Shown: positions 5,750-21,126 of the stretch, piece after piece
Layout of the letters: the number at the start of each line of letters is the position of its first letter
Numbering within the stretch: position 1 is the stretch's first letter
Assembly (NCBI GenBank): GCA_014376785.1
Contig: JACMQW010000098.1
Location: forward strand, 1 to 64,000
Length of the DNA: 64,000 nucleotides
Direction: 5' to 3'
Source: Oligoflexia bacterium
GTDB taxonomy: Bacteria > Bdellovibrionota > UBA1018
Program-made: the position numbers and the translations under genes
The notes under the pieces: model-generated
Told to the model about the DNA's origin: nothing
Seen by the model: only the letters and a program-made list of their open reading frames with translations
Database searches by the model: none

Positions 5750-5759
5750 AGTAAAGTTC

Positions 5760-6370
5760 TGGATCCGCAGGCGGCTGAGGTTTCCAAGACTTTTCCGTTC
5801 TTCTCGGGACGCTCACCCTTAAGATTAATGAGGCGATTCTTCTGATCAATGTGCCCGCACTGACGATCGATTGCGCTGTCCTTTGCATCGAACCATTGCC
5901 CGTCTTCTTTGATCTAATGACCTCCGGCATCGGTTAAGTGACCGCTTTTCATTTCGAGCAGGCGACCGACTTCATCGATCCGTCTTCCCTGATCATCGAG
6001 GCGAAAGCCTTCTTTTTTGATGATGAGGCCGTGATCAGCCGTATCGGGGATGCAGGGGCGCTTTGATCAGATAAGGCGCACCTTGCTCATTCAGCATTCC
6101 TTTCCCTTTCAATGGATTGTAACCGAGCGAGTACGGAAGACCTGCTTCCTTACGTACCAAATTTTTGAAATAGACGGCGCGGAATTCGGAGATGACACCA
6201 CTTTCCAGTGGTTCCATCCGGAATGATGGATGCAAGATCTCACGAACCGGACCCACCCGATTTCGCGTGAGCGGAATATGGAGTTCACCTTTTTAAAGCC
6301 GCTCGGTTGCGGTCTCCAGCACGGAGGCAAGACTGGAAGCCAAGCTAGCGCATTCGGTTTCGGTTTTGCG
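5760..6370 (-). pseudogene. Decayed coding remnant with several frame breaks (unknown protein)
   Basis: Manual minus-strand reading gives TECASLASSLASVLETATERL*KGELHIPLTRNRVGPVREILHPSFRMEPLESG...NEQGAPYLIKA, then a frame change into CIPDTADHGLIIKKEGFRLDDQGRRIDEVGRLLEMKSGHLTDAGGH*IKEDGQWFDAKDSAIDRQCGHIDQKNRLINLKGERPEKNGKVLE. Confidence 0.5.
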
Positions 6371-6446
6371 CTAACGTCATTTTGTTTGCCTCTTGGTCAA
6401 TAGGCTTTGAATGAACCTAAGTTGGTTTGGGATGGTTTCGATACCT

Positions 6447-6488
6447 TCCGGTGGTGCGCTTCACGTGCGCGCGCACCACCGGATTTTT
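6447..6488 (+). terminator. Rho-independent terminator
   Basis: Perfect 13-bp stem TCCGGTGGTGCGC / GCGCACCACCGGA followed by TTTTT. Confidence 0.85.
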
Positions 6489-6782
6489 GAGCTGCCGCAC
6501 GATAGTTCGGGTGGGCTCGCTTTGGTGAAACTTCGCACTTCAGTCGATCCCTTATTAGCTACAAGAATTTGAGCTCGTGTTGGCTCAGAAAAACTTGGGA
6601 TCTGACGACATCGATCTATAAAAATCAACTTGTTCTGCCATCGTCCATAAGTCGGCCGCATCTACCTAATAGCGAGAGTAATGTCCTGAAACACAGGGAA
6701 ACGCGCAGTCACCTCTAATTTTCACAGACTTCGCCGAGCCAAAAACTCAGTGGGATTTTTCCATTTCATTCGTCAGAAAACT

Positions 6783-9461
6783 TTACTCTTCTAAAATCAA
6801 AATCACGCCCGTTTGCCCATCAATGCGAACACGCATACCGGTTTTCAATTTTTCGGTCAGACCTTGGATTCCGACAATCGTTGGAAGACCCATCTCACGC
6901 GCGACAATCGCCGAGTGAGAGAGCAGGCCTCCTCGTTCCACTAACAGTGCGGAAGCGGATGGGTAGAGCGGGATCCAACCAGGATCGGTACGAAGTGTGA
7001 CCAAAATATCCTTATTCAATTCCATGTCGTCGTCTGGAGAAAGAATCACCTTCACTCGACCTTCCACAATTCCAGGGCAACAACCGGCACCGCGCAGCGC
7101 TCCCGGTGGAAGATCAGAGAGATCAATGATCGGCGGAGCGGGAAAATGCTCATTCATCCAATAGACCGGTCCCCGAGTCATGAACCGTGGAGCCGGCTCC
7201 TGAGAATTGTAGGCTGCGTATTCTTCCTTCCGAAGACGAATCAATGCTTTTAGATTTTGGGTCGCTAGAGCGCCACAAAAAGCCCCGTCTAACTCTTGTA
7301 CGGTGATGTAAAACACTTCCTCTGGCCGTTCGATCATTCCGCGTAACGCAAAATCTCTCCCGATCGAACAAAACATCCGACGAACGATCCCGTAGATTCG
7401 AGTCCGACAAAACCGGGTGTTCTCTCGATTCTTCACCGCCTGGCGCGCATTCTTCAGAGACCACCGGTAGACGAGGAGCTTTAATCCCGAAAGTGCGCCG
7501 GAGACTTTTTTTTCAGCTCCTCCTCGTATTTCTTGCTCGCGTTGCTCATATGCCTCCAGATCCGAGAAACCTGATCGAAGGTAATTTTTTAAACAAACAA
7601 AGAGAAATGTCGGATCCTTGTGGAGATCCGTCTGCTCGAGCTTCATTTCATTCATGCAGCGAAAACCATACAGATCGATGTAGCGATCTATCTGGGCTTT
7701 AAACTCGGTATGGGGCGACTGGCGCAGCCCTTCCATCAAATCCGGAGCTGGAGTGGCTAACATCATTTTTTTCAGTTCTGCACTCTTCTCAATCATCCCC
7801 GCCATTCGAATGAGTTCCCTCGTCGGTTCGGCAGACTCCAAATTTCCTTCTCCGCAAAGCAAGTCATTCTGAATCCCCGCACCCAACTCGGGCAGCCATT
7901 TCGCAGTCAATTTTTTCAAGAGGCCGAAATGAATCATGCACAGGTAGTCGTTAATGATCGGCGCTTCCCACCGTCTCAAAATCCGGCGCTCCAACTCCTG
8001 GTATTTCGCGTAAACTTCATCCGAGGACATTCGCTCATAATCGACACGTCGGAAATCATCGTAAACAATATGGAAGGTAACCAAAAAACGATCGACTACG
8101 GATTGGATTCGGAAGTGATAATAAAGAAACTTAAGTCCAGAGATGGTTCGGCGAATTTTAGTCGAAATTTTTTCTGCGGCGCCGGAGGGGCTGATCCGCT
8201 CCGCAATTTCATCCGAGAGCGAGTGAGGTGTCCCCATCATCGTCTCCATAAATCCACGGTTGTATTTAAAACCCGGAAGAATGCTCGTCAGTTTATACCA
8301 ATTTAAAATATTATAGAACACCCGCCCGTAGAAACTCCCGAGCATGTTCCTTAGAAAATAATCCATGTCTTTGATTTCGCGGTCCGGAATCAAAAGAATC
8401 TGACAGAACTGAACGTAGACCTGATGGTAAACGTAACGCGCAAACGTGAACGTCAAAGGCAGCGTAATTCCGCCATAACTTTCGACAATGTTTGAATTAT
8501 CCCAAACATAAAGAAGGCCTTCATGCGCACGAACCGCTGTCGTGACCGGTCGCGACTGGAGGATAAAGATCGTTCCATCCCGGATGCCCCACTCGATGTC
8601 TTGGGGAAAGCGGTAGGTCCGTTCGATGGCCACCCCGAGGGACGAGAGACTTTTGATTTCACTGTCACTCAGTGATGATGCTAACCTTAAAGACTGCTCC
8701 ACGGGAACCTCGCGAGTTCCCGGTCCTCGCTCGGCCTGCACAAGCTTCAGGTCTTTATTCACAACTTCGCGAGAACTCTCACATCCAGAGTCTTTGTCCC
8801 AGACGAACGCGTCGGATTCGAGAAGCCCCGATACAAATCCCTCTCCGATCCCATAGACCGAATTGATGAAAATCTTACCCCCGTCTCCCGTGATGGGGTC
8901 GCAGGTGAAAAGCACTCCACTTCGGTCGCAATCGATCATCTCCTGGAAAACAATTCCGACTGAAATCAGGCTGGACGCTTCAAGGCCACTTTGCTTGCGG
9001 TAAACGAGCCCACGCTCAGAAAATCCCGATGCCCAACATTCAAGAACCGAATTTTTAGCGTCCTCGAAAGAAGAAACGTAAAGGAAGGTACTCAACTGTC
9101 CTGCAAAAGAATGTCCCGCCGAATCCTCATCCAGTGCACTCGACCGCACCGCGATCAGCTTATTTTCGAATCCTGAGTAAGCTTTCCTCATGTCAGACTC
9201 CAAGCCCGCGGGAAGGTCGAGACTGAGAAACCACTGGCGAATAATTTCGGACGCAGACTTCGGATCGTAACCTGGTCTTAAAAGTTCATCGATCTTTCCA
9301 GAAAGTTCGTGGTGATTCACGAATTTTCGAAAATAGGATGCGCCTAAGATCACCCAAGGTGGAACTGGGAAACCACAGCTGGCGAGGTGGAAGAGATTAA
9401 GTCCCTTACCCCCTGCTTCGCGCGTAGCGTACGAGAGGGTAGAATCCCGGGTGACTAACAT
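6783..9461 (-). CDS. PEP-synthase / rifampin-phosphotransferase-like ATP-dependent dikinase
   Basis: N-terminal ATP-grasp (GGKGLNLFHLASCGFPVPPWVILG), swivelling His domain at the extreme C-terminus (GGLLSHSAIVAREMGLPTIVGI...VRIDGQTG). ATG 9461 overlaps the stop of the upstream gene. Confidence 0.85.
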   Translation of the reverse strand: MLVTRDSTLSYATREAGGKGLNLFHLASCGFPVPPWVILGASYFRKFVNHHELSGKIDELLRPGYDPKSASEIIRQWFLSLDLPAGLESDMRKAYSGFENKLIAVRSSALDEDSAGHSFAGQLSTFLYVSSFEDAKNSVLECWASGFSERGLVYRKQSGLEASSLISVGIVFQEMIDCDRSGVLFTCDPITGDGGKIFINSVYGIGEGFVSGLLESDAFVWDKDSGCESSREVVNKDLKLVQAERGPGTREVPVEQSLRLASSLSDSEIKSLSSLGVAIERTYRFPQDIEWGIRDGTIFILQSRPVTTAVRAHEGLLYVWDNSNIVESYGGITLPLTFTFARYVYHQVYVQFCQILLIPDREIKDMDYFLRNMLGSFYGRVFYNILNWYKLTSILPGFKYNRGFMETMMGTPHSLSDEIAERISPSGAAEKISTKIRRTISGLKFLYYHFRIQSVVDRFLVTFHIVYDDFRRVDYERMSSDEVYAKYQELERRILRRWEAPIINDYLCMIHFGLLKKLTAKWLPELGAGIQNDLLCGEGNLESAEPTRELIRMAGMIEKSAELKKMMLATPAPDLMEGLRQSPHTEFKAQIDRYIDLYGFRCMNEMKLEQTDLHKDPTFLFVCLKNYLRSGFSDLEAYEQREQEIRGGAEKKVSGALSGLKLLVYRWSLKNARQAVKNRENTRFCRTRIYGIVRRMFCSIGRDFALRGMIERPEEVFYITVQELDGAFCGALATQNLKALIRLRKEEYAAYNSQEPAPRFMTRGPVYWMNEHFPAPPIIDLSDLPPGALRGAGCCPGIVEGRVKVILSPDDDMELNKDILVTLRTDPGWIPLYPSASALLVERGGLLSHSAIVAREMGLPTIVGIQGLTEKLKTGMRVRIDGQTGVILILEE

Positions 9462-10378
9462 CCGATTCCTTTCGGGCCAAACAAAAGCCATAGAGTGTAA
9501 ACGATGACAATATAAACAGACGTTCCGGTTCGATAAATCCTTCCGAACTTCGGATTATTCTGCTGAACAAAGAGGACGCCGGAGACTCCAAGCAAACCGA
9601 GCGCAATTCTTCCGGAAAGAAACGAGGCCGAAAGAGAACGCTCGAAGCAATATTCGGCAACGCCTGCCATGCAGATCACAAGAACTACGGCACCTAATTT
9701 CCCAAACACCTTGGAGTAAGACGCCACTCCGGCTCGCTCTTCTCGATTTGAAAATGTTTTTCGGCCAAACTCGAAAACATTAAAAAGGCACCAAGTGCTT
9801 CCCGCAAAAAACCACACACGGTTCGGAAGTGACTCTAGCGAGGTCGCTTGTGACAACGATCCGGAAATCGCGATTCCGAGGAGCGCACTCACTACGGTGT
9901 GCGAAACGGCGTAGGTAGTTAGAAGCGGGCGAATCCACTTCGCAATAAAAAACTCATGGTACATGAGGACCGAATAGCCGGCCGCGATGCTGAACAATAG
10001 AAAAGGAAACATTCCCCAAAGCGCAAAACTAGCGGCCTCCAGGACCGTGCACACAACCATTCCTCGGAAGAGGTCACCGTGACTCACCAACCCTCGCGCA
10101 AGTGGACGACCGGGATTGAGTTCGAGATCTGTTTCGTAATCCTTCACTTCGTCGTAAAGGCGAAGTTTGAAGAAGAACGCAAGCGTAGCGAATCCAAGCG
10201 CGAGGATCTTCCAGTGATCCACTCCGCAAGGTGGGGTCAGTTTCAAGTGGGCTGCGTAGAACAGTCCGACTAGGGTCACATGGGTAATGGGCTCAAACCG
10301 CTCTTTTACAAAAATGAGCCACTTCGAAAGCGCAGTGCGAGTGGGATGTTCGAGAGCTTCACTCACCGGAAACTTCAC
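9455..10378 (-). CDS. UbiA-like prenyltransferase family membrane protein
   Basis: Multi-TM protein with RLYDEVKDYETDLELNPGRPLARGLVS (UbiA-type Asp-rich motif). Confidence 0.75.
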   Translation of the reverse strand: MKFPVSEALEHPTRTALSKWLIFVKERFEPITHVTLVGLFYAAHLKLTPPCGVDHWKILALGFATLAFFFKLRLYDEVKDYETDLELNPGRPLARGLVSHGDLFRGMVVCTVLEAASFALWGMFPFLLFSIAAGYSVLMYHEFFIAKWIRPLLTTYAVSHTVVSALLGIAISGSLSQATSLESLPNRVWFFAGSTWCLFNVFEFGRKTFSNREERAGVASYSKVFGKLGAVVLVICMAGVAEYCFERSLSASFLSGRIALGLLGVSGVLFVQQNNPKFGRIYRTGTSVYIVIVYTLWLLFGPKGIGC

Positions 10379-12113
10379 CGTTATTAATCATTTCGCGTCG
10401 GAGCGAATCGTATTCGACTTTACTATGGTGCCTTGGGTCCATCGGCATCGCATTTCGAATCACGATTTCATCGACGGTTATGCCGTTTTTATCCATCAAG
10501 CGTCTCACCTCGGACCGGTACTCCTCCAACTCGGCTTTCGCGTTCAGCGCCTCCGCATCATTCGGCACGATGACTGCCACGATTTTTTCTCCTAACCTTG
10601 AGTCAGGAAATCCCAGATAAGCTCCGTAACGCACAAACGGAAGTTTTTTCAGGACGATTTCCGCCCTGACGGGGAAGTGGTATTCCTCCAACCTTTTAAT
10701 CACATTATGCACTCTACCCACGATCCAGAGCTGTCCATCTTCGTCAAGGCGGCCCAGATCACCGGTGCGATGCCAAACGACTCCTCGCTCATCCCGGATT
10801 TTCGCACGGTGGAAAGCCTGGGCGTTATTATAATAATCTCGGCAAACATGCTCACCCGCAACAATGAGTTCGCCCACCGCACCCTTCTTCACCTCCAACG
10901 CCTCCCAGTCCAAAGCGGCACTCACCGTGATCGGATCTGGATTTATTTTCAAAAACTTTCGCTCTAACGAGTCAACCAGATGGCCGACGTTTACTCCTTC
11001 ATCGACCCAATCTGCGTCCTCGCTCGCCTTCGTCCGGGAATGAATCATCGGCTGGGCTTCAATGTGGGCCATCGGCTCTGCTTCGGTCGAGCCGTAGAGA
11101 ACCCAGACCTCCGCATTTTCCGCGACCTCAGTAAAATCGATCAGGTTATCTCGACTGACCGGCGCACCTCCCGTTGCGGCCCTTCGCAAATGAGGCAACG
11201 AAATTTTGTTTTTAAGACAGTAGGCAGAGAGGCCATTCAGGAGTGAAGGCGAGAGCGTCGTGCAGGTCACGCCATTTGCCCGCATTTGGGCAATTAAAAT
11301 AAGAGCGTCTCGCTCGGATGGAACGCCCACATCCAAAGCTGGAATCACTGTACTCACCCCTTCGGCAAGATTATTCAAACTGAAGATCGGAAAAATCGGA
11401 AGATCGATATCCGCTTCCCGGTAAGGAATACAGGCATGGAGTTCGTAGTGCTGGGCTGCGAGAAACCGGTGCGTGCGATTTGCGCCTTTTGGAACTCCAG
11501 AACTCCCCGTCGTGAAAGTGATGAGAGCAGTCTCCTCCATTTCGACTGCAGCCGTTTTAGAGGTAGCCGGAGACGCAAGCAAAGACTCAAAAGTCGCACT
11601 GTAGGCCACATTACTGGGGAAAGATCCCTTCACGATTTTCAGCGGAATTTTTGCGATCTCAGGCTCCCCACCCACTCCTTCAAAGGCCTGATGAAAAGAC
11701 ACCATGGCTTTCGGCGAGACGGTCTTCGCACATTCTCCAAGCGAACCGCGGCGTGCCCATGAATCGAGAAAGACAGCAATGGCCCCAATCTTCTGCAGCG
11801 CGAACATGGCAACGTACATATCGAGCGACATTGGTAAAAAGAGAATCACTCGGTCGCCCTGCTCGATCCCAAGGTTCAAATAACCTTGAGCGACGCTTGA
11901 AATCTTCTGCTCGAAATCTTTCAAACTCACCGAAAGATGCGGCAATGGATCCTCAAGCTTGAAACTCCAAGCTCGCAAATCTGAGGGCTCTACCCATCGC
12001 AGAGGAATGAGGTCTGGTCTTTCAATGAGGTGTCTATCCAAAAAGGAGTTCACATTATTGCGCACATCTTTTCCGGGATAATACCCTGTGCGTTCAGCTT
12101 TGGAATCGCTCAT
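10359..12113 (-). CDS. AMP-dependent acyl-CoA synthetase / acyl-AMP ligase (OleC-like class)
   Basis: ALITFTTGSSGVPKGANRTHRFL, VLYGSTEAEPMA, WHRTGDLGRLDEDGQLWIVGR adenylation motifs. Confidence 0.9.
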   Translation of the reverse strand: MSDSKAERTGYYPGKDVRNNVNSFLDRHLIERPDLIPLRWVEPSDLRAWSFKLEDPLPHLSVSLKDFEQKISSVAQGYLNLGIEQGDRVILFLPMSLDMYVAMFALQKIGAIAVFLDSWARRGSLGECAKTVSPKAMVSFHQAFEGVGGEPEIAKIPLKIVKGSFPSNVAYSATFESLLASPATSKTAAVEMEETALITFTTGSSGVPKGANRTHRFLAAQHYELHACIPYREADIDLPIFPIFSLNNLAEGVSTVIPALDVGVPSERDALILIAQMRANGVTCTTLSPSLLNGLSAYCLKNKISLPHLRRAATGGAPVSRDNLIDFTEVAENAEVWVLYGSTEAEPMAHIEAQPMIHSRTKASEDADWVDEGVNVGHLVDSLERKFLKINPDPITVSAALDWEALEVKKGAVGELIVAGEHVCRDYYNNAQAFHRAKIRDERGVVWHRTGDLGRLDEDGQLWIVGRVHNVIKRLEEYHFPVRAEIVLKKLPFVRYGAYLGFPDSRLGEKIVAVIVPNDAEALNAKAELEEYRSEVRRLMDKNGITVDEIVIRNAMPMDPRHHSKVEYDSLRREMINNGEVSGE

Positions 12114-12781
12114 CCGCTCTCCCTTATCAGTTGTTTAATCTTTTCGGCGATAATATCCGAACGAGTCCAGATGAGTGCGTGACCCGCATCTGGCACCACC
12201 GTTTGTTCATAAGTCGAGAGCACGCCTAGCCACTCCGTTTGAACGGGCTTTGCGAGTGCATCTTCGGATCCGGCAATCACGTAAATACGCGTTCCGCGCG
12301 ACGCAGCGATCGCCAAAAACTTCCTTTTAAAAGGCTCATCGATCCGAAGATCTTCTTTTTCCAATACCGACTGCGCCAAGATGTCCGGCCGAGAAAATCG
12401 GCGAGTCATCTCGCGAACCCTTTCGGGTACGGCGTCAGGAAGGCACGCTTTCACTAGAAACTTTTCAACAATCTCCGAGCCTTTTTTCATCAGAAGGAAA
12501 TTTCTGACGAAAGCGATGCGCAAAAGTTTTACCTTTATAAATCCCGCACTTTTTTCTGGAAAAAAATAAGGTGAAATAAATAGAACTGATTTCGGCATTC
12601 CCTTTTTTACACAGGCCTCGACGAGGCGAGCACATCCCCAGGAGTAACCAACCGCAATCTCGTCTGAAAACCCATCTCCAGAATCAGCGGCGCTTGCGAA
12701 TTTAAAACCAAGCTTCGATTCCACCATGGCGAAATCTTCGTGAAATCCGGGGGATCCGTGAAAACCGACGACTGTACTCAT
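12110..12781 (-). CDS. Alpha/beta hydrolase
   Basis: Oxyanion HGSPG, nucleophile elbow GYSWG, terminal GHALI; 4-bp overlaps with both neighbours. Confidence 0.75.
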   Translation of the reverse strand: MSTVVGFHGSPGFHEDFAMVESKLGFKFASAADSGDGFSDEIAVGYSWGCARLVEACVKKGMPKSVLFISPYFFPEKSAGFIKVKLLRIAFVRNFLLMKKGSEIVEKFLVKACLPDAVPERVREMTRRFSRPDILAQSVLEKEDLRIDEPFKRKFLAIAASRGTRIYVIAGSEDALAKPVQTEWLGVLSTYEQTVVPDAGHALIWTRSDIIAEKIKQLIRESG

Positions 12782-13527
12782 AAACTCATTCCCTTCCGAA
12801 TCAGTGCACGAATTTCCGAAATTTTCTTCGGCGCTTTTTTAAGGAGGATAGAGTCTGAGCGATTCATAATTTTTTCTGGCCATTCACCTCGGTCGGCAAA
12901 AAAATTTAAGAGCCCCGAAATCGCTTTGCCTTCTCGGGCGCCAGTGCGAGAGAGGTAAGCCAGGTAGTTCTTCTCGCCACCACCGGAAACTTGTTCCCGA
13001 TGCAAAATCGCTCCATCATCGACCTTTTCATTCATGAGGTGGATTGAAAAACCAGCGTCACGGTTTTCAGAAAGCGCATAGAGATCACACATTGCACCTC
13101 GGTCGACGGGAAGAATTCCATGATGGATGTTCACACAACCGAAACGCGGCGCTCGCAAAACTTCTTCTCGGTAAATGCACCGGGTACGGGCATTCACTAT
13201 GAGATCGACTGGTTTTTCGGTTAGCCAAGCGACCACTTCGGGACTGTTCATCGTGGAAACGCGGAGAATCGGTAGTCCTCTCGCTTTAAACAATTTCTCT
13301 CGCGGATCAAAACGCGAAGTTAGAAAGTTCCGGAAGAGCTGTAAACCAAGGCGCGGAGCGCCGGCTGCGACGAGTCCGGTAGCGCTTCGAAAAACGGATG
13401 TCTTGTCAGCTTTTAAGATGATGAGACCCGCCACATGATCCGGGCAGAGCGAGAAAATTTCAGTAAAAAGATCCAAATAGTTCCTCGGAACATAAGTCAG
13501 CTCGGAAGTTACGAAAATCGTTCTCAT
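12778..13527 (-). CDS. Formyltransferase family protein
   Basis: FGCVNIHHGILPVDRGAMCDLYAL and GFSIHLMNEKVDDGAILHREQV resemble the Fmt/GART catalytic N-H-D region. Confidence 0.8.
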   Translation of the reverse strand: MRTIFVTSELTYVPRNYLDLFTEIFSLCPDHVAGLIILKADKTSVFRSATGLVAAGAPRLGLQLFRNFLTSRFDPREKLFKARGLPILRVSTMNSPEVVAWLTEKPVDLIVNARTRCIYREEVLRAPRFGCVNIHHGILPVDRGAMCDLYALSENRDAGFSIHLMNEKVDDGAILHREQVSGGGEKNYLAYLSRTGAREGKAISGLLNFFADRGEWPEKIMNRSDSILLKKAPKKISEIRALIRKGMSL

Positions 13528-13555
13528 CGGTAAACCATCGTCTCAGCTTGGCTCC

Positions 13556-13585
13556 CGATCGTCAAAGTCACACGTTTGACGATCG
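13556..13585. promoter_or_regulatory. Perfect 11-bp inverted repeat in divergent promoter region
   Basis: CGATCGTCAAA-GTCACACG-TTTGACGATCG between genes starting at 13527(-) and 13647(+). Confidence 0.65.
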
Positions 13586-13646
13586 CGGTTTCTGGAAGAA
13601 ATCTGAAGTTGTGCGGCGGAAGCATTCCCCCGATACTGAAATCAAC

Positions 13647-14744
13647 ATGACTTATTTTGATAAATTAAATTACACGCTATCAAACGAAGATACTCGAGTC
13701 GAAGTCGAACTCCTTCAATCCGGTGCCCGTAAAGTATTCGCAATCGCTGGATCCGGGGCGCGAGTCTTACCCCTTCTGGCAAAAAATCCGAGTGAGCTCG
13801 TCGTGGTGGATGTTTCTGCTCACCAACTCTACCTTGCCGAATTGCGGATCGCTGCCGCAAAAAAACTCACTCACCCTGAGTTTATTTATTTTCTCGGTTA
13901 CCGCGGCGGACTGGCTGAAGGAAACCGCCAGAATCTGGACCGAAGTGAATTCTTCGACATCCTCAAAGATAGCCTATCGGCAGACTGCCGTCAGTTCTGG
14001 GATGAAAACCGACCGGCCTGGTGCCCGCGCGGGATTATCTATCTCGGAAAATGGGAAGGACACTTCATTCAGATCGCGGCTATTTTTAGAAAAATACTTT
14101 TCATGAACGTCCTTCCAATTTTTGAAGCCCACTCGATGCAGGAGCAGCTCGAACTTTACCGGAAGCATTGGAAATCGGCGCGATTCAAATCTTTTTTGAG
14201 GGTTGCGGCAAGCGAGTGGGTGTTTGAAAAGTTTCTCTACAAAGGTCACTTCGCAGGCGCTCGGTCTCGAAAAACCGTCAAGCAACCGGCATGGGAATTT
14301 CTTCATGATGAATTCGTGAGGATCTTCACCACCACACTCGTTCGAAAAAACTACATGATGCAGCTTTTTTTTCTTGGAAAAGTCCTCTTCGAAGAAGGAC
14401 TTCCGATCGAAGCGACGGCCTCCACTTTGGACGAAATCAAGCGATCGAACACCCGGGTTCGTTTTTTAAAGTCCGACCTTACTTCGGCATTAGCGAGCGA
14501 GCCTTTCGATTTCGTATCCCTGTCGGACACGATTTCTTACCTTCCCGCGGAACAAGCAAATCAAGCATTACAAATGATGGCGAGTGATTGCTCACCAGGT
14601 ACGACCGTGGTGATCCGTTCCTTTCTGCGTGCACCTACGGCGATCGATACCCGCGGGTGGACGGAGGACCGAAGCGCCGAAGACCGAGCGTATCAGCTGG
14701 ATGGCACCGGGGTCTACCGGTTTCACATCTTTCGAAAGAACTAA
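13647..14744 (+). CDS. DUF3419 / BtaA-like S-adenosylmethionine:3-amino-3-carboxypropyl transferase
   Basis: MTYFDKLNYTLSNEDTRVEVELLQSGARKVFAIAGSGARVLPLLAKNPSELVVVDVSAHQLYLAELRIAAAKKL matches the pattern of the DUF3419 SAM fold. Confidence 0.75.
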   Translation: MTYFDKLNYTLSNEDTRVEVELLQSGARKVFAIAGSGARVLPLLAKNPSELVVVDVSAHQLYLAELRIAAAKKLTHPEFIYFLGYRGGLAEGNRQNLDRSEFFDILKDSLSADCRQFWDENRPAWCPRGIIYLGKWEGHFIQIAAIFRKILFMNVLPIFEAHSMQEQLELYRKHWKSARFKSFLRVAASEWVFEKFLYKGHFAGARSRKTVKQPAWEFLHDEFVRIFTTTLVRKNYMMQLFFLGKVLFEEGLPIEATASTLDEIKRSNTRVRFLKSDLTSALASEPFDFVSLSDTISYLPAEQANQALQMMASDCSPGTTVVIRSFLRAPTAIDTRGWTEDRSAEDRAYQLDGTGVYRFHIFRKN

Positions 14745-14863
14745 TCGCCATAAATAATTGGAATTATTAGCTTAAATAACCGTCCCCGAACTGCCATGTT
14801 CATTCGTTAATTCTGTTCTCAGTTTTAACATTATGTGTCATTATTCGGCTCGGTCGAGGTTTT

Positions 14864-15865
14864 ATGCGAGTTGATATCCTGATCAATGGAAATGCCGGGC
14901 AGTCCAATCAAAGAGAAATCATCGCTCGCGTGAGCAGCGTTCTTTTTAGATGCGACCTCCGTTTCCATCATCCAGATTCAATTCTCGCGATGCAGGATAC
15001 TCTCAGCCAGGCTTGCGAGGAAGGAAGCGAATGCCTCATCATCAGTGGAGGGGACGGCACCCTGAACGCGACATTGGAACCGATGATGGAAAGATTTTTA
15101 GCAGGACAAACCATTCCGCCGATTTGCCTGGTCCCCGTTGGGACTGCAAACGATCTTGCCGGTAGTTTGCGGACACCCAGACGGATCGAAAAAGCCGCGC
15201 GCGCGGCGCTCGAAGGAAAGCTTAAGCCGATCGACGTGATCGAAGTGAGCAGCGAGAAAAATAAACGGTACATGCTCACCAATGGGGGGCTCGGAATTCC
15301 CGCCCAAGCCGCGCTCCAGGCAAACCGCCTTCGTTCTCTCGTTCGAGAAAAAGCGCACGGTTCTCGTAAAAGTTTATTCTCGAGAAAACTTTATCACTTC
15401 GGCGAAAACATCATGAGTCGTGCGGGATCGAAAATCTATGATGTCCTCGCGGTAAGAGAAATGCTCGGGTGGGAACCGGGGCGATGGGATATTTCCGTCG
15501 AAGCAGACGGACGTGCCCCCTTCCGAACCCAAGCACCATTTATTTTTGTGAATAATCAGCCAGGGATTGCGGGCAAATTCACCTCTGCTCCCTTAACGAC
15601 GAACAATGACGGAACCTTCAATTTTTTACTGATGAATTTAACGGAGCTCGTTCCTCAATTAAAGGCCATGGCCGTCATGAGAGCCGGTCGCGAACTTTCA
15701 CGAAAGGCCTGTCCTAGTTTCGAAACTCGATTCGTCCGCCTCACCGCCGAAAGCGGCTCAAAAGGATTAACGTTTTTTGGGGACGGTGAGATTCTCCACG
15801 AAGGTGTTCGAGAACTCTCCATCCGGTGCCTTCATCCAGGCATTCCTTTTTTGGTGATGGAATGA
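14864..15865 (+). CDS. Diacylglycerol-kinase-family lipid kinase (YegS/BmrU-like)
   Basis: INGNAGQ N-terminus, IISGGDGTLNATLEPM, LVPVGTANDLAGSL, FFGDGEIL. Confidence 0.88.
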   Translation: MRVDILINGNAGQSNQREIIARVSSVLFRCDLRFHHPDSILAMQDTLSQACEEGSECLIISGGDGTLNATLEPMMERFLAGQTIPPICLVPVGTANDLAGSLRTPRRIEKAARAALEGKLKPIDVIEVSSEKNKRYMLTNGGLGIPAQAALQANRLRSLVREKAHGSRKSLFSRKLYHFGENIMSRAGSKIYDVLAVREMLGWEPGRWDISVEADGRAPFRTQAPFIFVNNQPGIAGKFTSAPLTTNNDGTFNFLLMNLTELVPQLKAMAVMRAGRELSRKACPSFETRFVRLTAESGSKGLTFFGDGEILHEGVRELSIRCLHPGIPFLVME

Positions 15866-16962
15866 CAACGGTTTCTTCTCTTTCACTCCCCACAAACCTG
15901 CGCATCCTCATTTCCGGGGGCACCGGATTTCTGGGAAGCGCCCTGGTACCCGCACTGAAGCCCTACGCATCGACGATCGATTGCATCTCAAGAACAAACC
16001 CCAAATGTATTTCCGGAGATTTGGCGGAGTGGGACGGAAAAATGGACCCTCGCTCTCTCCGAGGGAAATACGACCTCTTTATTCACCTCGCTGGACTCTA
16101 CAACCTTCGGGCAAGTCCGACAGAACTGCTCCGCCAGAATGTCGGAGCCACGCACAACGCACTCGTGGTCGCTCAGAAAGCAGAAATTCCTCATTTTGTG
16201 CACGCAAGCACGGTTGCCGTCACGATCGGTGAACAAGGACTCGGGAATGAACGCGACATGCGCAGAGTCGGGATGAATTCACGCGATCCCCTCGTTTATC
16301 CCGACATGCTGGACACCTCGCGCGAGTTTCCGGATTTCTACGCGAAAACGAAAGCCCATGCAGAACACCTCGTGAAGAATTGGTCGACCGGGAGCTTCGT
16401 TTCACAATTGAACCTGCGTTTCGGCATTTTAGTGGGTGACACCTTCAGTGGTCGAATTGAACGGATCGACGGCCCCTATCATAGCGCCGAATTTCTTACT
16501 CGAGCGAAAGGATTTTTTGAACGGTACCGCGGTCCCGTAATCCTTCCCGGCAATTCCCGAAAAACGATCCCGATCGTTCCCGTCGATATCGCAGCAAAAG
16601 CGGCTGCAAAACTGATCGGAATTTCACGGGCGCTCGACTGGCAAGGCTACAAGTCTCTGCACGTGGCTCCGGGAACCGACCGAGCATTAGGGACTCGCGA
16701 GATGTACGAAAGCGCAGTCGCTCACCTGGGTTATCAGAATCGAGAGATTAAAATTTTAGAGAATTTGCCAAAAATACTCGTAAAATACCTGGGCGAATGG
16801 ATCGGACAGATTCCCAGGCAGGAAGTGGAATACATCCTATCCTTTCCTCGTTTAGACGTCACCGAGACCGAACTGCTCTTAGGCAAAGATTGGTGTCCGG
16901 AATTTAAATCTTACGCTCCCCAGTTTTGGAAAGGTTACGATGAGTACATTTCGAATCGCTAA
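15862..16962 (+). CDS. NAD-dependent epimerase/dehydratase (3beta-HSD-like SDR)
   Basis: ILISGGTGFLGSALVPAL nucleotide motif; FYAKTKAHAEHLV YxxxK motif; ATGA overlap with upstream gene. Confidence 0.88.
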   Translation: MTTVSSLSLPTNLRILISGGTGFLGSALVPALKPYASTIDCISRTNPKCISGDLAEWDGKMDPRSLRGKYDLFIHLAGLYNLRASPTELLRQNVGATHNALVVAQKAEIPHFVHASTVAVTIGEQGLGNERDMRRVGMNSRDPLVYPDMLDTSREFPDFYAKTKAHAEHLVKNWSTGSFVSQLNLRFGILVGDTFSGRIERIDGPYHSAEFLTRAKGFFERYRGPVILPGNSRKTIPIVPVDIAAKAAAKLIGISRALDWQGYKSLHVAPGTDRALGTREMYESAVAHLGYQNREIKILENLPKILVKYLGEWIGQIPRQEVEYILSFPRLDVTETELLLGKDWCPEFKSYAPQFWKGYDEYISNR

Positions 16963-19072
16963 CTTAGCCTTTGGGAAGTCCACTCTCGATAGCGCCTATG
17001 AGTTCGATTACGGTGGTCATCATTTCGAGGTTCAGCGGTATGGCACGCATTTTTCAATTCCGTACCTAAAAGACCTCATGCGTTCGCTTCGAACCACGGT
17101 CGACGCGATTGCCCTGTCTGACCTCCCTCCTCCCATGCACCTCGGGAAAAAAAGTTACATCCATCGCCAGGTTTTAGATGTCATGGCGACCCCGCTCTCC
17201 ATTCCCCTCTGCGACGGCTACCAAATTCGCGAGATCGCCACCGTGGATTCCATCGCGCGTTACATCGCAGACGGTACGCTCGATCCGGAAGATGGAATTT
17301 TCTTTCCCATTGGTCTATTGAACTTGGAGATCATCGTATATCTGCGTGAGAAATACGGCGAATCCATCCGACTGGGTGATGCCTTTTCCGTACTGGGAAT
17401 ACCAAAGCTCCTTACCCCGTCCGACGACCTCGTACTACCCGCCCAAGCGCTCATGAATTTGGTGAATCTACGAGACATCGAAAAGCAAACTCCCATGGCA
17501 AGCAGCGGATGGAAGCGCATGGTTCGGGAACGAATGGCGGGAAGCTTGTCCGGAATCAAGTCCGTCGTATCGGATGTCGGTGTGCTCGCCTTATTTGGAA
17601 AAGACGTCAGTTTCATTCGGGGAAAAGACGTCTACCTCACGAGCTCAAACCCAGCGATGGAGAAGTTTTTAAATCAGCACGAACCCTCTACCATCCGAAA
17701 CCTTTTCCCGGAGAATTTTCGACTCTCTCCTTTTATTAACTACTCCGTTTTAGACGCAGCCCTTCGACTAGCCCATGGAAAAACCGCAGCGCTTTCGATT
17801 GAAGAGTGGCAGGAAATGCTGGCAACCGAACCGATGGAAAAAGACAATCGACGTCGCTACGTCGTCCTGTCTTCGCCCTCTCTCCAAACCCGACTTCAAA
17901 ATGGGGCCCATCAAGTTCTTCGTCGAACACGGGCTAAGGCAACGCCTGACTTCGCATTCGTCGTCCACCCCCTCTCTCGGGAAGATATTTTCCGGGTACC
18001 GGGGCTACGAGGTCTTCGAAATCTTCCGGAAAATTACGGGAAACCGATTGAAAAGCTGATTTCGAAAGCCCCAGGATTCGTTTACGGGCACATTCGCCAA
18101 ATCGTGAGCGAAAAAAATAACCGGGAAGTGAATGGAATTATTTACTCCCTGCCGTCGACTCCTCGCCTGATGAAAGAAGAAGATCCAGACGTCACTTACC
18201 GAAAAGTCGAGAGACTTTGCCACCTCGCAGCCGAATCCGGCGCGAAGATCATCGGTTTGGGCGCTTACACGAAAGTCGTGGGCGATTCGGGCGAGACGAT
18301 CAACCGAAATAGTCCCATACCGGTCACGACGGGAAACAGCCTCTCTGCTTCCGCAACGCTTTGGGCGGTTCACGATGCGGTTCAGAAAATGGGCATTCTG
18401 AAAATGGATCAAGCCACCGGGCTAGTGGACGGAACCGCGATGGTCATCGGCGCAACCGGATCCATCGGCAAGGTTTCCGCAAAATTGCTCAGTCTTGCCT
18501 TCAAGAAAGTCATTTTAGTCGCACCCCGTTTAAATCGCCTGGAAGAACTCGCCAGGGACGTGAGGGCAACATCGCCGGGCTGTGAAGTGCTCGTCACCAC
18601 CGATGCCAATGAACTCGCTGGACACGCGGACGTCCTCGTCACGGCAACTTCTGCTTTCGACCAAAAGATCGTGGACGTGATGCGACTGAAGCCAGGTTGC
18701 GTGGTCTGTGACTGTTCGCGCCCTCTGGACTTTACCGAAGAAGACGCCCGCAAGCGCCCCGATGTGTTAATCATCGAATCGGGAGAAGTCGTACTTCCCG
18801 GCCCGGTAAAACTCAGTTGTGATTTAGGCCTTCCCGATAATTCGGTTTACGCCTGCCTCGGTGAAACGGCAATCCTTGCCATGGAAGGCCTTTATGAACC
18901 GTTCACCATCGGGCGAGACATCGATTGGTTGAAAGTGAAAAAAATCTACCGTCTCGCAACCGAGCACGGAGTGAAGCTCGCGACGATTCGCGGCCATGCC
19001 GGATTTGTGAGTGAAAAAGAAATTTCGATCGTCCGAGCACTTGCCCTGAAAGGGCTTAGCCTTCCTCGCTAA
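16940..19072 (+). CDS. Fusion protein with C-terminal long-chain acyl-[ACP] reductase-like (AAR) domain
   Basis: C-terminal half GAKIIGLGAYTKVVGDSGETI...PVTTGNSLSASAT...GTAMVIGATGSIGKVSAKLL resembles cyanobacterial AAR; ~330 aa N-terminal part unassigned. Confidence 0.75.
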   Translation: MSTFRIANLAFGKSTLDSAYEFDYGGHHFEVQRYGTHFSIPYLKDLMRSLRTTVDAIALSDLPPPMHLGKKSYIHRQVLDVMATPLSIPLCDGYQIREIATVDSIARYIADGTLDPEDGIFFPIGLLNLEIIVYLREKYGESIRLGDAFSVLGIPKLLTPSDDLVLPAQALMNLVNLRDIEKQTPMASSGWKRMVRERMAGSLSGIKSVVSDVGVLALFGKDVSFIRGKDVYLTSSNPAMEKFLNQHEPSTIRNLFPENFRLSPFINYSVLDAALRLAHGKTAALSIEEWQEMLATEPMEKDNRRRYVVLSSPSLQTRLQNGAHQVLRRTRAKATPDFAFVVHPLSREDIFRVPGLRGLRNLPENYGKPIEKLISKAPGFVYGHIRQIVSEKNNREVNGIIYSLPSTPRLMKEEDPDVTYRKVERLCHLAAESGAKIIGLGAYTKVVGDSGETINRNSPIPVTTGNSLSASATLWAVHDAVQKMGILKMDQATGLVDGTAMVIGATGSIGKVSAKLLSLAFKKVILVAPRLNRLEELARDVRATSPGCEVLVTTDANELAGHADVLVTATSAFDQKIVDVMRLKPGCVVCDCSRPLDFTEEDARKRPDVLIIESGEVVLPGPVKLSCDLGLPDNSVYACLGETAILAMEGLYEPFTIGRDIDWLKVKKIYRLATEHGVKLATIRGHAGFVSEKEISIVRALALKGLSLPR

Positions 19073-19782: not shown

Positions 19783-21126
19783 CTATGGATTCCCCGGGAT
19801 AAAAGTCCGCCAGTGAGAAAGGTAATCTCTCTGGAGAAATGCTTCTTTTTTCGCAAAATCAGTCACTAAAAGTGGGGCGCGGGATTCAAACATGAAGGCC
19901 AGCGTGTCTTCGAGCTTTACCGGAGTGAGCTCTGAAACGGACGCTTTTCGATGACTCTCGCTATCGGGACCATGGGCCGAATAGAAATTATGCAGACTGC
20001 CACCTCCAGGAACAAATCCTCCTGCTGTTTTTGCATCGTAAACACCCCGAATAAGACCCATGTATTCGCTCATGCAGTTTCGGTGAAAATAGGGTGGCCG
20101 AAACGTATTTTCCGCGACCATCCACCGAGGAGGAAAAATAACAAAATCCACGTTTGCCACTCCCGGAGTTTCGCTTGGCGAAGTGAGCACCGTAAAAATG
20201 GATGGATCGAGGTGGTCAAAACTGACCGTATTCACTGTGTTGAATTTAGCTAAGTCGTATTTGTAAGGAACGTAATTCCCATGCCAAGCCACCACATCAA
20301 ACGGAGAATGCTCGATCTTCGCACCCCAAAGCTCGCCGCCGAATTTCGCGATGAGCTCAAAGTCTCCCGCTTTGTTTTCATATTCGGCGACCGGAGTGAG
20401 AAAGTGACGGGAATGGGCGAGCCCATTCGCGCCGATCGGGCCGAGCTCCGGAAGTCGGAAGGGCTGACCAAAGTTTTCTGCAATGTAGCCTCGGCAACTC
20501 AAGCCATCTGTTTCAAATGGGTTGATTTGGAATTTCATTCCGCGCGGGATCACGCAGATTTCTCCGGGCGAGACATCTAGCGAACCTAGCTCGGTTCGCA
20601 CTTCCAACGCGCCTTGCTCGGGCACGAACAAAAAATCCGAATCCGCATTCATAAAAAAACGATCGACCATCAGTGTGCCAAAACAATAAAGGTGGATATG
20701 CAGCCCCCTTTGCTCACGAACTGCGGAAAGTGCAGGCCCGGTGCCCGCTAGGGTTCGAATACTGGTGACAAAATCAGTGGCTGACACAGACGCGGACTCC
20801 GCATCTTCCGGATAAGAATTCCATCGCATTTGATTCGGATCGAGGTGCTTCGGATTGAAAAATGTGGTTTGGGTGAGTTCGCGAAGAGGTGCAAAAGGCC
20901 CATGCATGACCGAAGGCCTTAAGCGGTAAAGCCAGCTGGACAGGTTTTGAGCGCGCGGCACCGTGAATGCGGAGCCGCTCAGCTGCTCTGCATAAAGCCC
21001 AAAAAGCGGCTTTTGGGGGGAGTTTTGATCCCGGGGCAGCGCCCCCTCTTTTGCTTCAGTGGAAAAGTGATTACCGAAACCAGAAAGGTATTTCGAAGGT
21101 GAACGCGCTTTATTTTGATTCCGCAT
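19783..21126 (-). CDS. hmgA: Homogentisate 1,2-dioxygenase
   Basis: YLSGFGNHFSTEA, PPRWMVAENTFRPPYFHRNCMSEYMGLIRG, GFVPGGGSLHNFYSAHGPD. Confidence 0.95.
   Translation of the reverse strand: MRNQNKARSPSKYLSGFGNHFSTEAKEGALPRDQNSPQKPLFGLYAEQLSGSAFTVPRAQNLSSWLYRLRPSVMHGPFAPLRELTQTTFFNPKHLDPNQMRWNSYPEDAESASVSATDFVTSIRTLAGTGPALSAVREQRGLHIHLYCFGTLMVDRFFMNADSDFLFVPEQGALEVRTELGSLDVSPGEICVIPRGMKFQINPFETDGLSCRGYIAENFGQPFRLPELGPIGANGLAHSRHFLTPVAEYENKAGDFELIAKFGGELWGAKIEHSPFDVVAWHGNYVPYKYDLAKFNTVNTVSFDHLDPSIFTVLTSPSETPGVANVDFVIFPPRWMVAENTFRPPYFHRNCMSEYMGLIRGVYDAKTAGGFVPGGGSLHNFYSAHGPDSESHRKASVSELTPVKLEDTLAFMFESRAPLLVTDFAKKEAFLQRDYLSHWRTFIPGNP

Follow-up and report, generated by a model that had tools for sequence, protein, structure and literature searches.

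Organization of the Locus

The window is the whole stretch of DNA analysed, 64,000 nucleotides of an Oligoflexia bacterium contig (JACMQW010000098.1). Inspection of its open reading frames finds nine intact genes between 6783 and 19072, in two divergent halves. The minus-strand half (6783-13527) encodes, in order, a dikinase with PPDK_N and PEP-utilizers domains, a UbiA protein, an AMP-ligase, an alpha/beta hydrolase and a Formyl_trans_N protein; we call these genes (g1-g5) module B. The plus-strand half, which runs from 13548 to 19072 by its ORF limits, is module A (g6-g9): DUF3419, DAGK_cat, an SDR of the NAD_binding_4/3beta-HSD kind, and a fusion protein with a C-terminal AAR/PigE-type reductase. 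The first-pass annotation had listed the same nine genes at these coordinates and strands, and all nine frames are indeed uninterrupted; Pfam and NCBI model matches show its family names to be correct. The features, with refined starts, are as follows.

6783..9461, minus strand: g1, RPH/PigC/TamQ-like ATP dikinase (PPDK_N plus swivelling His domain), about 892 aa
9455..10378, minus strand: g2, UbiA-superfamily membrane transferase
10359..12113, minus strand: g3, AMP-forming acyl ligase (Pfam AMP-binding, 1.1e-39)
12110..12781, minus strand: g4, alpha/beta hydrolase with a GYSWG nucleophile motif (Pfam Abhydrolase_6, 1.2e-5)
12778..13527, minus strand: g5, formyltransferase catalytic domain (Pfam Formyl_trans_N, 2.2e-13)
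13528..13646, no strand: divergent intergenic region, with the DUF3419 start refined to ATG 13647
13647..14744, plus strand: g6, predicted DUF3419/BtaA-like SAM-dependent aminocarboxypropyl transferase (Pfam DUF3419, 7.4e-52)
14864..15865, plus strand: g7, diacylglycerol-kinase-like lipid kinase (Pfam DAGK_cat, 3.5e-21; YegS_C, 2.5e-8)
15862..16962, plus strand: g8, extended SDR of the fatty-acyl-reductase (NAD_binding_4) type (Pfam NAD_binding_4, 2.3e-20)
16940..19072, plus strand: g9, two-domain protein with an N-terminal domain of ~310 aa and a C-terminal acyl-thioester reductase

The starts of the DUF3419, SDR and dikinase genes were probably mis-set in the ORF list. The N-termini of homologues place them at ATG 13647 rather than TTG 13548, at ATG 15862, and at ATG 9461 in a frame that itself extends to 9491. 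The first of these revisions opens a 119-bp divergent intergenic region between the halves, within which the promoters of both would be expected. Promoter-like matches in 13528..13646 are no commoner than in shuffles, and the promoter and terminator scan found nothing above shuffled sequences. Most junctions had been described as overlaps of 4-23 bp; with the starts revised, the coding junctions do overlap by 4-23 bp, except for a 119-bp gap between the DUF3419 and DAGK genes.

The flanking genes lie outside the conserved set and serve other functions: glycosyltransferases and an OEP efflux protein below 5749, TerC at 19069 and homogentisate dioxygenase at 19783. The OEP gene is separated from the dikinase gene by ~1 kb (5750-6780). 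This interval contains a single ORF of at least 120 aa, on the minus strand with a start near 5930, and is possibly decayed coding sequence.

The Enzymes of Module B

The g1 dikinase matches PPDK_N (8.6e-72) and PEP-utilizers (8.2e-23) in Pfam and, among NCBI models, NF004881 (1054 bits), RedH (377 bits) and PigC (340 bits). Its nearest solved structure belongs to the 5fbs family. The swivelling histidine, His859 in a GGLLSHS motif, and the ATP-site region are invariant among the cluster homologues. PPDK_N and PEP-utilizers are the only domains that Pfam detects in g1, with no C-terminal PEP/pyruvate-binding barrel, and the score against the PEP synthase model TIGR01418 is 297 bits for a cut-off of 740. 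Since there is no detectable PEP-binding barrel, we reject PEP synthase as the identity of g1, and the label "phosphoenolpyruvate synthase" that NCBI attaches to such dikinases through NF004881 is unlikely to be right. The idea of a selenoprotein, raised by RPH matches flagged "1 TGA", was also discarded; the aligned region is stop-free in tblastn.

The UbiA assignment of g2 comes from a Pfam match of 5.2e-9 (36.2 bits against a cut-off of 34.2). The first Asp-rich motif is present, as invariant D76, D80 and D84, and an invariant E203-x-x-R206-K207 lies further along the protein. The best and only PDB match is digeranylgeranylglyceryl phosphate synthase (6m31, 3.1e-7). The g3 ligase matches the PRK09274 family at 359 bits. 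In many relatives, the homologues of g3 and g4 form a single fused hydrolase-ligase protein. The nucleophile of g4 is Ser47, with Asp174 and His201 as candidates for the remaining catalytic residues. In g5, N133, H135 and D170 are kept in 27 sequences, and we take these to be the N-H-D catalytic triad of the PurN/Fmt-fold formyltransferases.

The Enzymes of Module A

The Pfam DUF3419 model is matched by g6 over its full length (4-385 of 385), and g6 weakly matches structures of class I methyltransferases. A BtaA activity is suggested by membership in this family. Homologues of g6 accompany module B alone in other phyla, where the DUF3419 proteins encoded at HMGR-type loci are 19-25% identical to g6. 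The GGDGT motif of g7 is kept in 37 sequences, and S128 and the Y172-xxx-K176 motif of g8 are kept in 44.

Used as a profile, the C-terminal half of g9 matches PigE (4ppm, 1.7e-40) and AAR (6jzq, 2.2e-16). Cys639, invariant in 31 sequences, aligns with the AAR catalytic Cys294 of 6jzq, and PigE has this cysteine too. The AlphaFold model has a pLDDT of 85.4, and its best Foldseek matches are AAR structures (3.1e-19). Against the AAR equivalog TIGR04058, g9 scores 51.5 bits for a cut-off of 449.7; against the PigE model, it scores 156 bits. The N-terminal domain has no clear relative by sequence search. Its own model reaches a pTM of 0.86, and the structural matches are weak, AAR being one of them (Foldseek TM 0.44, E 9.5e-4 to 8e-3). 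An hhalign comparison with the AAR half gives 2.4% probability, though it is collinear. From these comparisons, the domain is possibly a degenerate AAR-like copy. It also occurs without the reductase, in ~320-aa genes (G092:C5:220889-221809, G166:C49:25591-26511, G228:C17:2992-3966 and G078:C52:24979-25944), and for two of these four, stop codons are reported.

Conservation and Co-Occurrence of the Two Modules

A phylogenetic profile was taken over the 243 genomes of the phylum that are at least 90% complete, counting the AAR fusion at E <= 1e-60 and the dikinase at E <= 1e-200. The AAR fusion is found in 72 of these genomes and the dikinase in 78. Lack of conserved co-occurrence of the two halves had been named beforehand in the first-pass annotation as an observation that would speak against its reading; 68 genomes have both, 14 have one (the AAR fusion alone in 4, the dikinase alone in 10) and 161 have neither, for a Fisher p of 5e-44 that shared ancestry inflates. 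Of the four genomes scored with the AAR fusion alone, one (G014) carries pieces of the dikinase gene on small contigs. The two genes are within 20 kb of each other in 53 of the 68 genomes (2.0-10.2 kb). They are unlinked in the others: in G067 they lie 1.16 Mb apart on one contig, and in 14 genomes they are on separate contigs, of which several are long. That both modules are kept when unlinked indicates a functional tie between them.

The synteny extends across many genera. In two relatives from the same family as the window's genome (L025 and L030), all nine genes form a single co-directional run in the order DAGK, SDR, AAR fusion, DUF3419, FMT, hydrolase, ligase, UbiA, dikinase. These runs, together with the co-occurrence, support the earlier suggestion of an undescribed lipid or specialised-metabolite system. 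Bacteriovoracaceae and related genomes (e.g., L049, L050, L058 and L066) have a divergent layout, with DUF3419, AAR, SDR and DAGK facing FMT, hydrolase-ligase, UbiA and dikinase. The cluster is present in Bdellovibrio bacteriovorus, Bacteriovorax and Halobacteriovorax. Both modules lie within about 20 kb in B. bacteriovorus strain kdesi (L078, also G250), and 14 or more genomes from the genus to which G250 (Bdellovibrio kdesi) belongs contain both. Reduced forms of the cluster occur in Verrucomicrobia, Planctomycetes and Riflebacteria. Within the window's own genus, G000 has the cluster, but neither the AAR fusion nor the dikinase is present in two other genomes, G001 (93% complete) and G002 (87%), so the distribution of the cluster is patchy even inside one genus.

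The trees place the window's two modules differently. Its AAR, SDR and DUF3419 proteins group with those of the Bdellovibrio-type loci L078, L100 and L073, with a support of 1.0 for the AAR clade, and L023, L084 and L090 join this grouping where those loci have AAR, SDR or DUF3419. The window's dikinase groups with L025 and L030 (support 0.994). As judged from these trees, the window's modules are of different ancestry and were re-paired, which argues that modules A and B work together.

Alternative Parts in Related Loci

Certain parts of the cluster are exchanged among the 80 loci compared. FMT and a GNAT acyltransferase, each in 25 loci, are never found together (0/80; p = 8.5e-6, uncorrected for phylogeny). 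The window's locus is of the FMT subtype, and the other subtype has GNAT in place of g5. AAR (31 loci) and an HMG-CoA-reductase-like protein (10 loci) are likewise never together (0/80; p = 0.005, also uncorrected for phylogeny). In 7 of the 10 HMGR-type genomes, HMG-CoA synthase is unmatched and DXP reductoisomerase is present, and L120 encodes a fusion of the HMGR-like domain with an AMP-ligase. On account of these two observations, we think that the substrate of the HMGR-like enzyme is probably not HMG-CoA but another acyl thioester, which it would reduce as AAR and SDR would here. HMGR-like genes adjoin UbiA, dikinase or DUF3419 genes in L059, L074 (12756-14057), L082, L120 and L123, mostly in genomes with no detectable HMG-CoA synthase. 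HMG-CoA synthase (PF08540) and DXP reductoisomerase (PF02670) are both undetected in G000, G276 (B. bacteriovorus kdesi), G277 and G278.

A polytopic protein with an RKxxHxxxG motif and no Pfam match adjoins DUF3419 in L059, L082, L102 and L123. It is presumably phytol/dolichol-kinase-like and may replace DAGK in those loci. Other genomes from the window's order or family also carry an RPH-type gene. In L034:7680-14957 and L036:3553-12231, from the same order, it lies beside a fusion of class III aminotransferase and AAR, with a domain order opposite to that of PigE. Further RPH-type genes are found in L035, L037, L038 and L039, and a UbiA gene in L035 and L036. From their gene content, L034-L039 look like a second, TamH/TamQ-like system.

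Export Genes in Relatives

The clusters of relatives are often followed by a LolCD-type exporter, made up of an ABC ATPase with a MacB/FtsX permease, and by a LolA-like lipoprotein-sorting protein (PF17131) as carrier. Adjoining these in the same relatives is a secreted protein without a Pfam match, a probable outer-membrane barrel. In other relatives, the neighbors are an MMPL pump and a different LolA-like protein. Partners of these types suggest a hydrophobic product whose destination is the outer membrane or the exterior of the cell. In the window's own genome, no LolA-like gene was detected, nor any close match to the partial FtsX query taken from one relative. The export linkage is thus seen only in relatives, and export may be absent or different here.

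Comparison with Known Systems

The first-pass annotation had found that no single known pathway fits, and this stands: OleA and ADO are absent among the cluster genes, and BtaB, ACP and PKS are not in the conserved set. Its comparison to olefin biosynthesis turned out to be weak. OleABCD shares the hydrolase, AMP-ligase and SDR, and the hydrolase-ligase fusions are reminiscent of OleBC; however, the ligase scores 229 of the 900 bits required by the OleC model, the SDR scores 23 of 580 against OleD, and the cluster hydrolase has a Ser nucleophile motif. We reject the OleBC reading of the hydrolase-ligase pair on the model scores and this motif. In fold and catalytic Cys, the C-terminal half of g9 is like the AAR of the cyanobacterial AAR/ADO system, but g9 has the additional N-terminal domain and other partners. 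The betaine-lipid system BtaA/BtaB shares the DUF3419 protein; in place of BtaB, the cluster has the formyltransferase or GNAT, and no BtaB-type N-methyltransferase was found in the conserved cluster neighborhoods. Rifampicin phosphotransferase (RPH) has the same three-part dikinase architecture and swivelling His, but g1 reaches 331 of the 999 bits of its model, and the g1 type is usually beside UbiA and ligase genes, while RPH is a stand-alone resistance gene.

The closest parallel is in tambjamine and prodigiosin biosynthesis. In the enamine branch of the tambjamine pathway, the ligase TamA, the reductase-aminotransferase TamH and TamQ act in series (PMC6667630). The cluster shares with these systems the combination of an AMP-ligase, an AAR-type acyl-thioester reductase and an RPH-type ATP-dependent enzyme, g1 and g9 being distant homologues of PigC/RedH and PigE, respectively. 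It differs in lacking the bipyrrole genes and an aminotransferase, in having UbiA, BtaA, FMT, DAGK and SDR in addition, and in the partner domain of the g9 reductase, which is of another kind.

A Proposed Pathway

It is very probable that the nine genes serve a single pathway, and there is good reason to expect a lipid as its product. The fuller proposal, for which we see an even chance, is that one dedicated pathway with two co-evolving modules makes a fatty amphiphile for the outer membrane or the outside. The AMP-ligase would activate a carboxylic acid (step 1). Using Cys639 and NAD(P)H, the g9 reductase would turn an acyl thioester into an aldehyde, from which the SDR would produce an alcohol; in other phyla, the HMG-CoA-reductase-like enzyme would perform both reductions (step 2). 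The lipid alcohol would be phosphorylated by DAGK, or elsewhere by the phytol/dolichol-kinase-like membrane protein (step 3). By means of ATP and its swivelling His, the RPH/PigC-like dikinase would phosphorylate or condense an aldehyde- or alcohol-derived intermediate (step 4), and the UbiA enzyme would join the activated chain to an acceptor in the membrane (step 5). UbiA enzymes ordinarily use prenyl diphosphates, so this step may concern an isoprenoid instead of a fatty chain. The BtaA-like enzyme would transfer a 3-amino-3-carboxypropyl group from SAM (step 6), and the amine would be capped by formylation in the FMT subtype, as here, or by acylation in the GNAT subtype (step 7). In relatives, export would follow by the LolCD-like ABC exporter, the LolA-like carrier and the probable outer-membrane protein, or by the MMPL pump and a LolA-like carrier (step 8).

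Parts of this scheme deserve less confidence than the whole. The exact order of steps 2-5 (reduction, lipid kinase, dikinase, UbiA) is unlikely to be as written. The combination of aminocarboxypropylation and formylation, already put forward in the first-pass annotation, gains support because FMT and GNAT never share a locus, but the chemistry itself is unproven; capping of the BtaA-derived amine by FMT or GNAT is a tentative idea that could well be wrong.

Weighing the Alternatives

The parallel above allows a quite different product, a tambjamine-like secreted small molecule. The ligase and reductase would make a fatty aldehyde, the PigC/TamQ-like dikinase would condense it with a small amine or other nucleophile, and BtaA, FMT and UbiA would tailor the result. 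The shared trio of enzymes, the matches of g1 to RedH and PigC and of g9 to PigE, the sister loci with an aminotransferase-AAR fusion adjoining RPH, and the linked ABC exporter all favor it. However, the PigC and RedH equivalog cut-offs (1300 and 1350 bits) are far from reached, none of the nine genes is an aminotransferase, no pyrrole, ACP, PKS or NRPS genes were found in or around the conserved set, and the partners DAGK, BtaA and LolA-type proteins indicate lipids. We therefore regard such a molecule as unlikely. A low probability also goes to two independent neighboring systems, in which the membrane glycerolipids would be the target of module A (BtaA/DAGK/aldehyde) and module B would have another product, with a shared lifestyle explaining their co-inheritance. 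It would account for module B occurring without AAR, SDR and DAGK in other phyla and in genus g30, and for the differing module phylogenies in the window. It sits poorly with BtaA staying with module B where AAR, SDR and DAGK are missing (L059, L065, L074, L082, L120 and L124), with RPH being present in 68 of the 72 AAR genomes, and with the co-retention of unlinked pairs.

The sole PDB match of UbiA, to DGGGP synthase, raises the prospect of an isoprenoid or ether-lipid pathway. UbiA would act like the archaeal enzyme, joining a prenyl diphosphate to an acceptor of the glycerol-phosphate type that DAGK supplies, and HMGR would give mevalonate in other phyla. Related loci do contain HMGR and phytol-kinase-like genes. 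Yet most of the HMGR-type genomes have DXP reductoisomerase but are without a match to HMG-CoA synthase, the ligase-HMGR fusion of L120 points elsewhere, and no polyprenyl synthase is among the window's nine genes; we find this pathway quite improbable. Finally, the first-pass annotation had allowed that the genes might fall into unrelated housekeeping families, and the NF004881 label would fit a chance juxtaposition of a PEP synthase, a menaquinone UbiA and a fatty-acid ligase. With the dikinase far below the PEP synthase cut-off and lacking the Pfam barrel, the distribution patchy, and the synteny and co-occurrence of the nine genes conserved, this is hardly credible. The proposal of a single dedicated pathway to a fatty amphiphile is the one that we carry forward.

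Significance

Every enzyme family in the cluster is known, while the combination is apparently undescribed and matches no known pathway. The portion of the open-access literature reached by searching for DUF3419, the Bdellovibrio lipidome, phosphatidylthreonine and UbiA yielded no description of the cluster, nor did the lipocone paper (PMC12419801), as far as the searched terms reach into it. As a speculative extension with a small chance of being right, the cluster would define a new bacterial lipid class: the reductase and kinases would turn a fatty chain into a phospho-activated, prenyl-diphosphate-like donor that UbiA couples to an acceptor, giving an aminocarboxypropyl lipid, N-formyl or N-acyl, for export to the outer membrane of predators.

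If the proposed pathway is true, then nine genes kept in many Bdellovibrio/Bacteriovorax-type genomes yield a lipid or lipid-like product without a described structure. Several orphan families would be joined in one process, namely the bacterial DUF3419 proteins, the NF004881 "PEP synthases", the UbiA proteins with the E-xx-RK motif, and the HMG-CoA-reductase-like proteins of genomes without HMG-CoA synthase. Since the cultured predator B. bacteriovorus carries the cluster, the product can be sought in a laboratory-grown organism.
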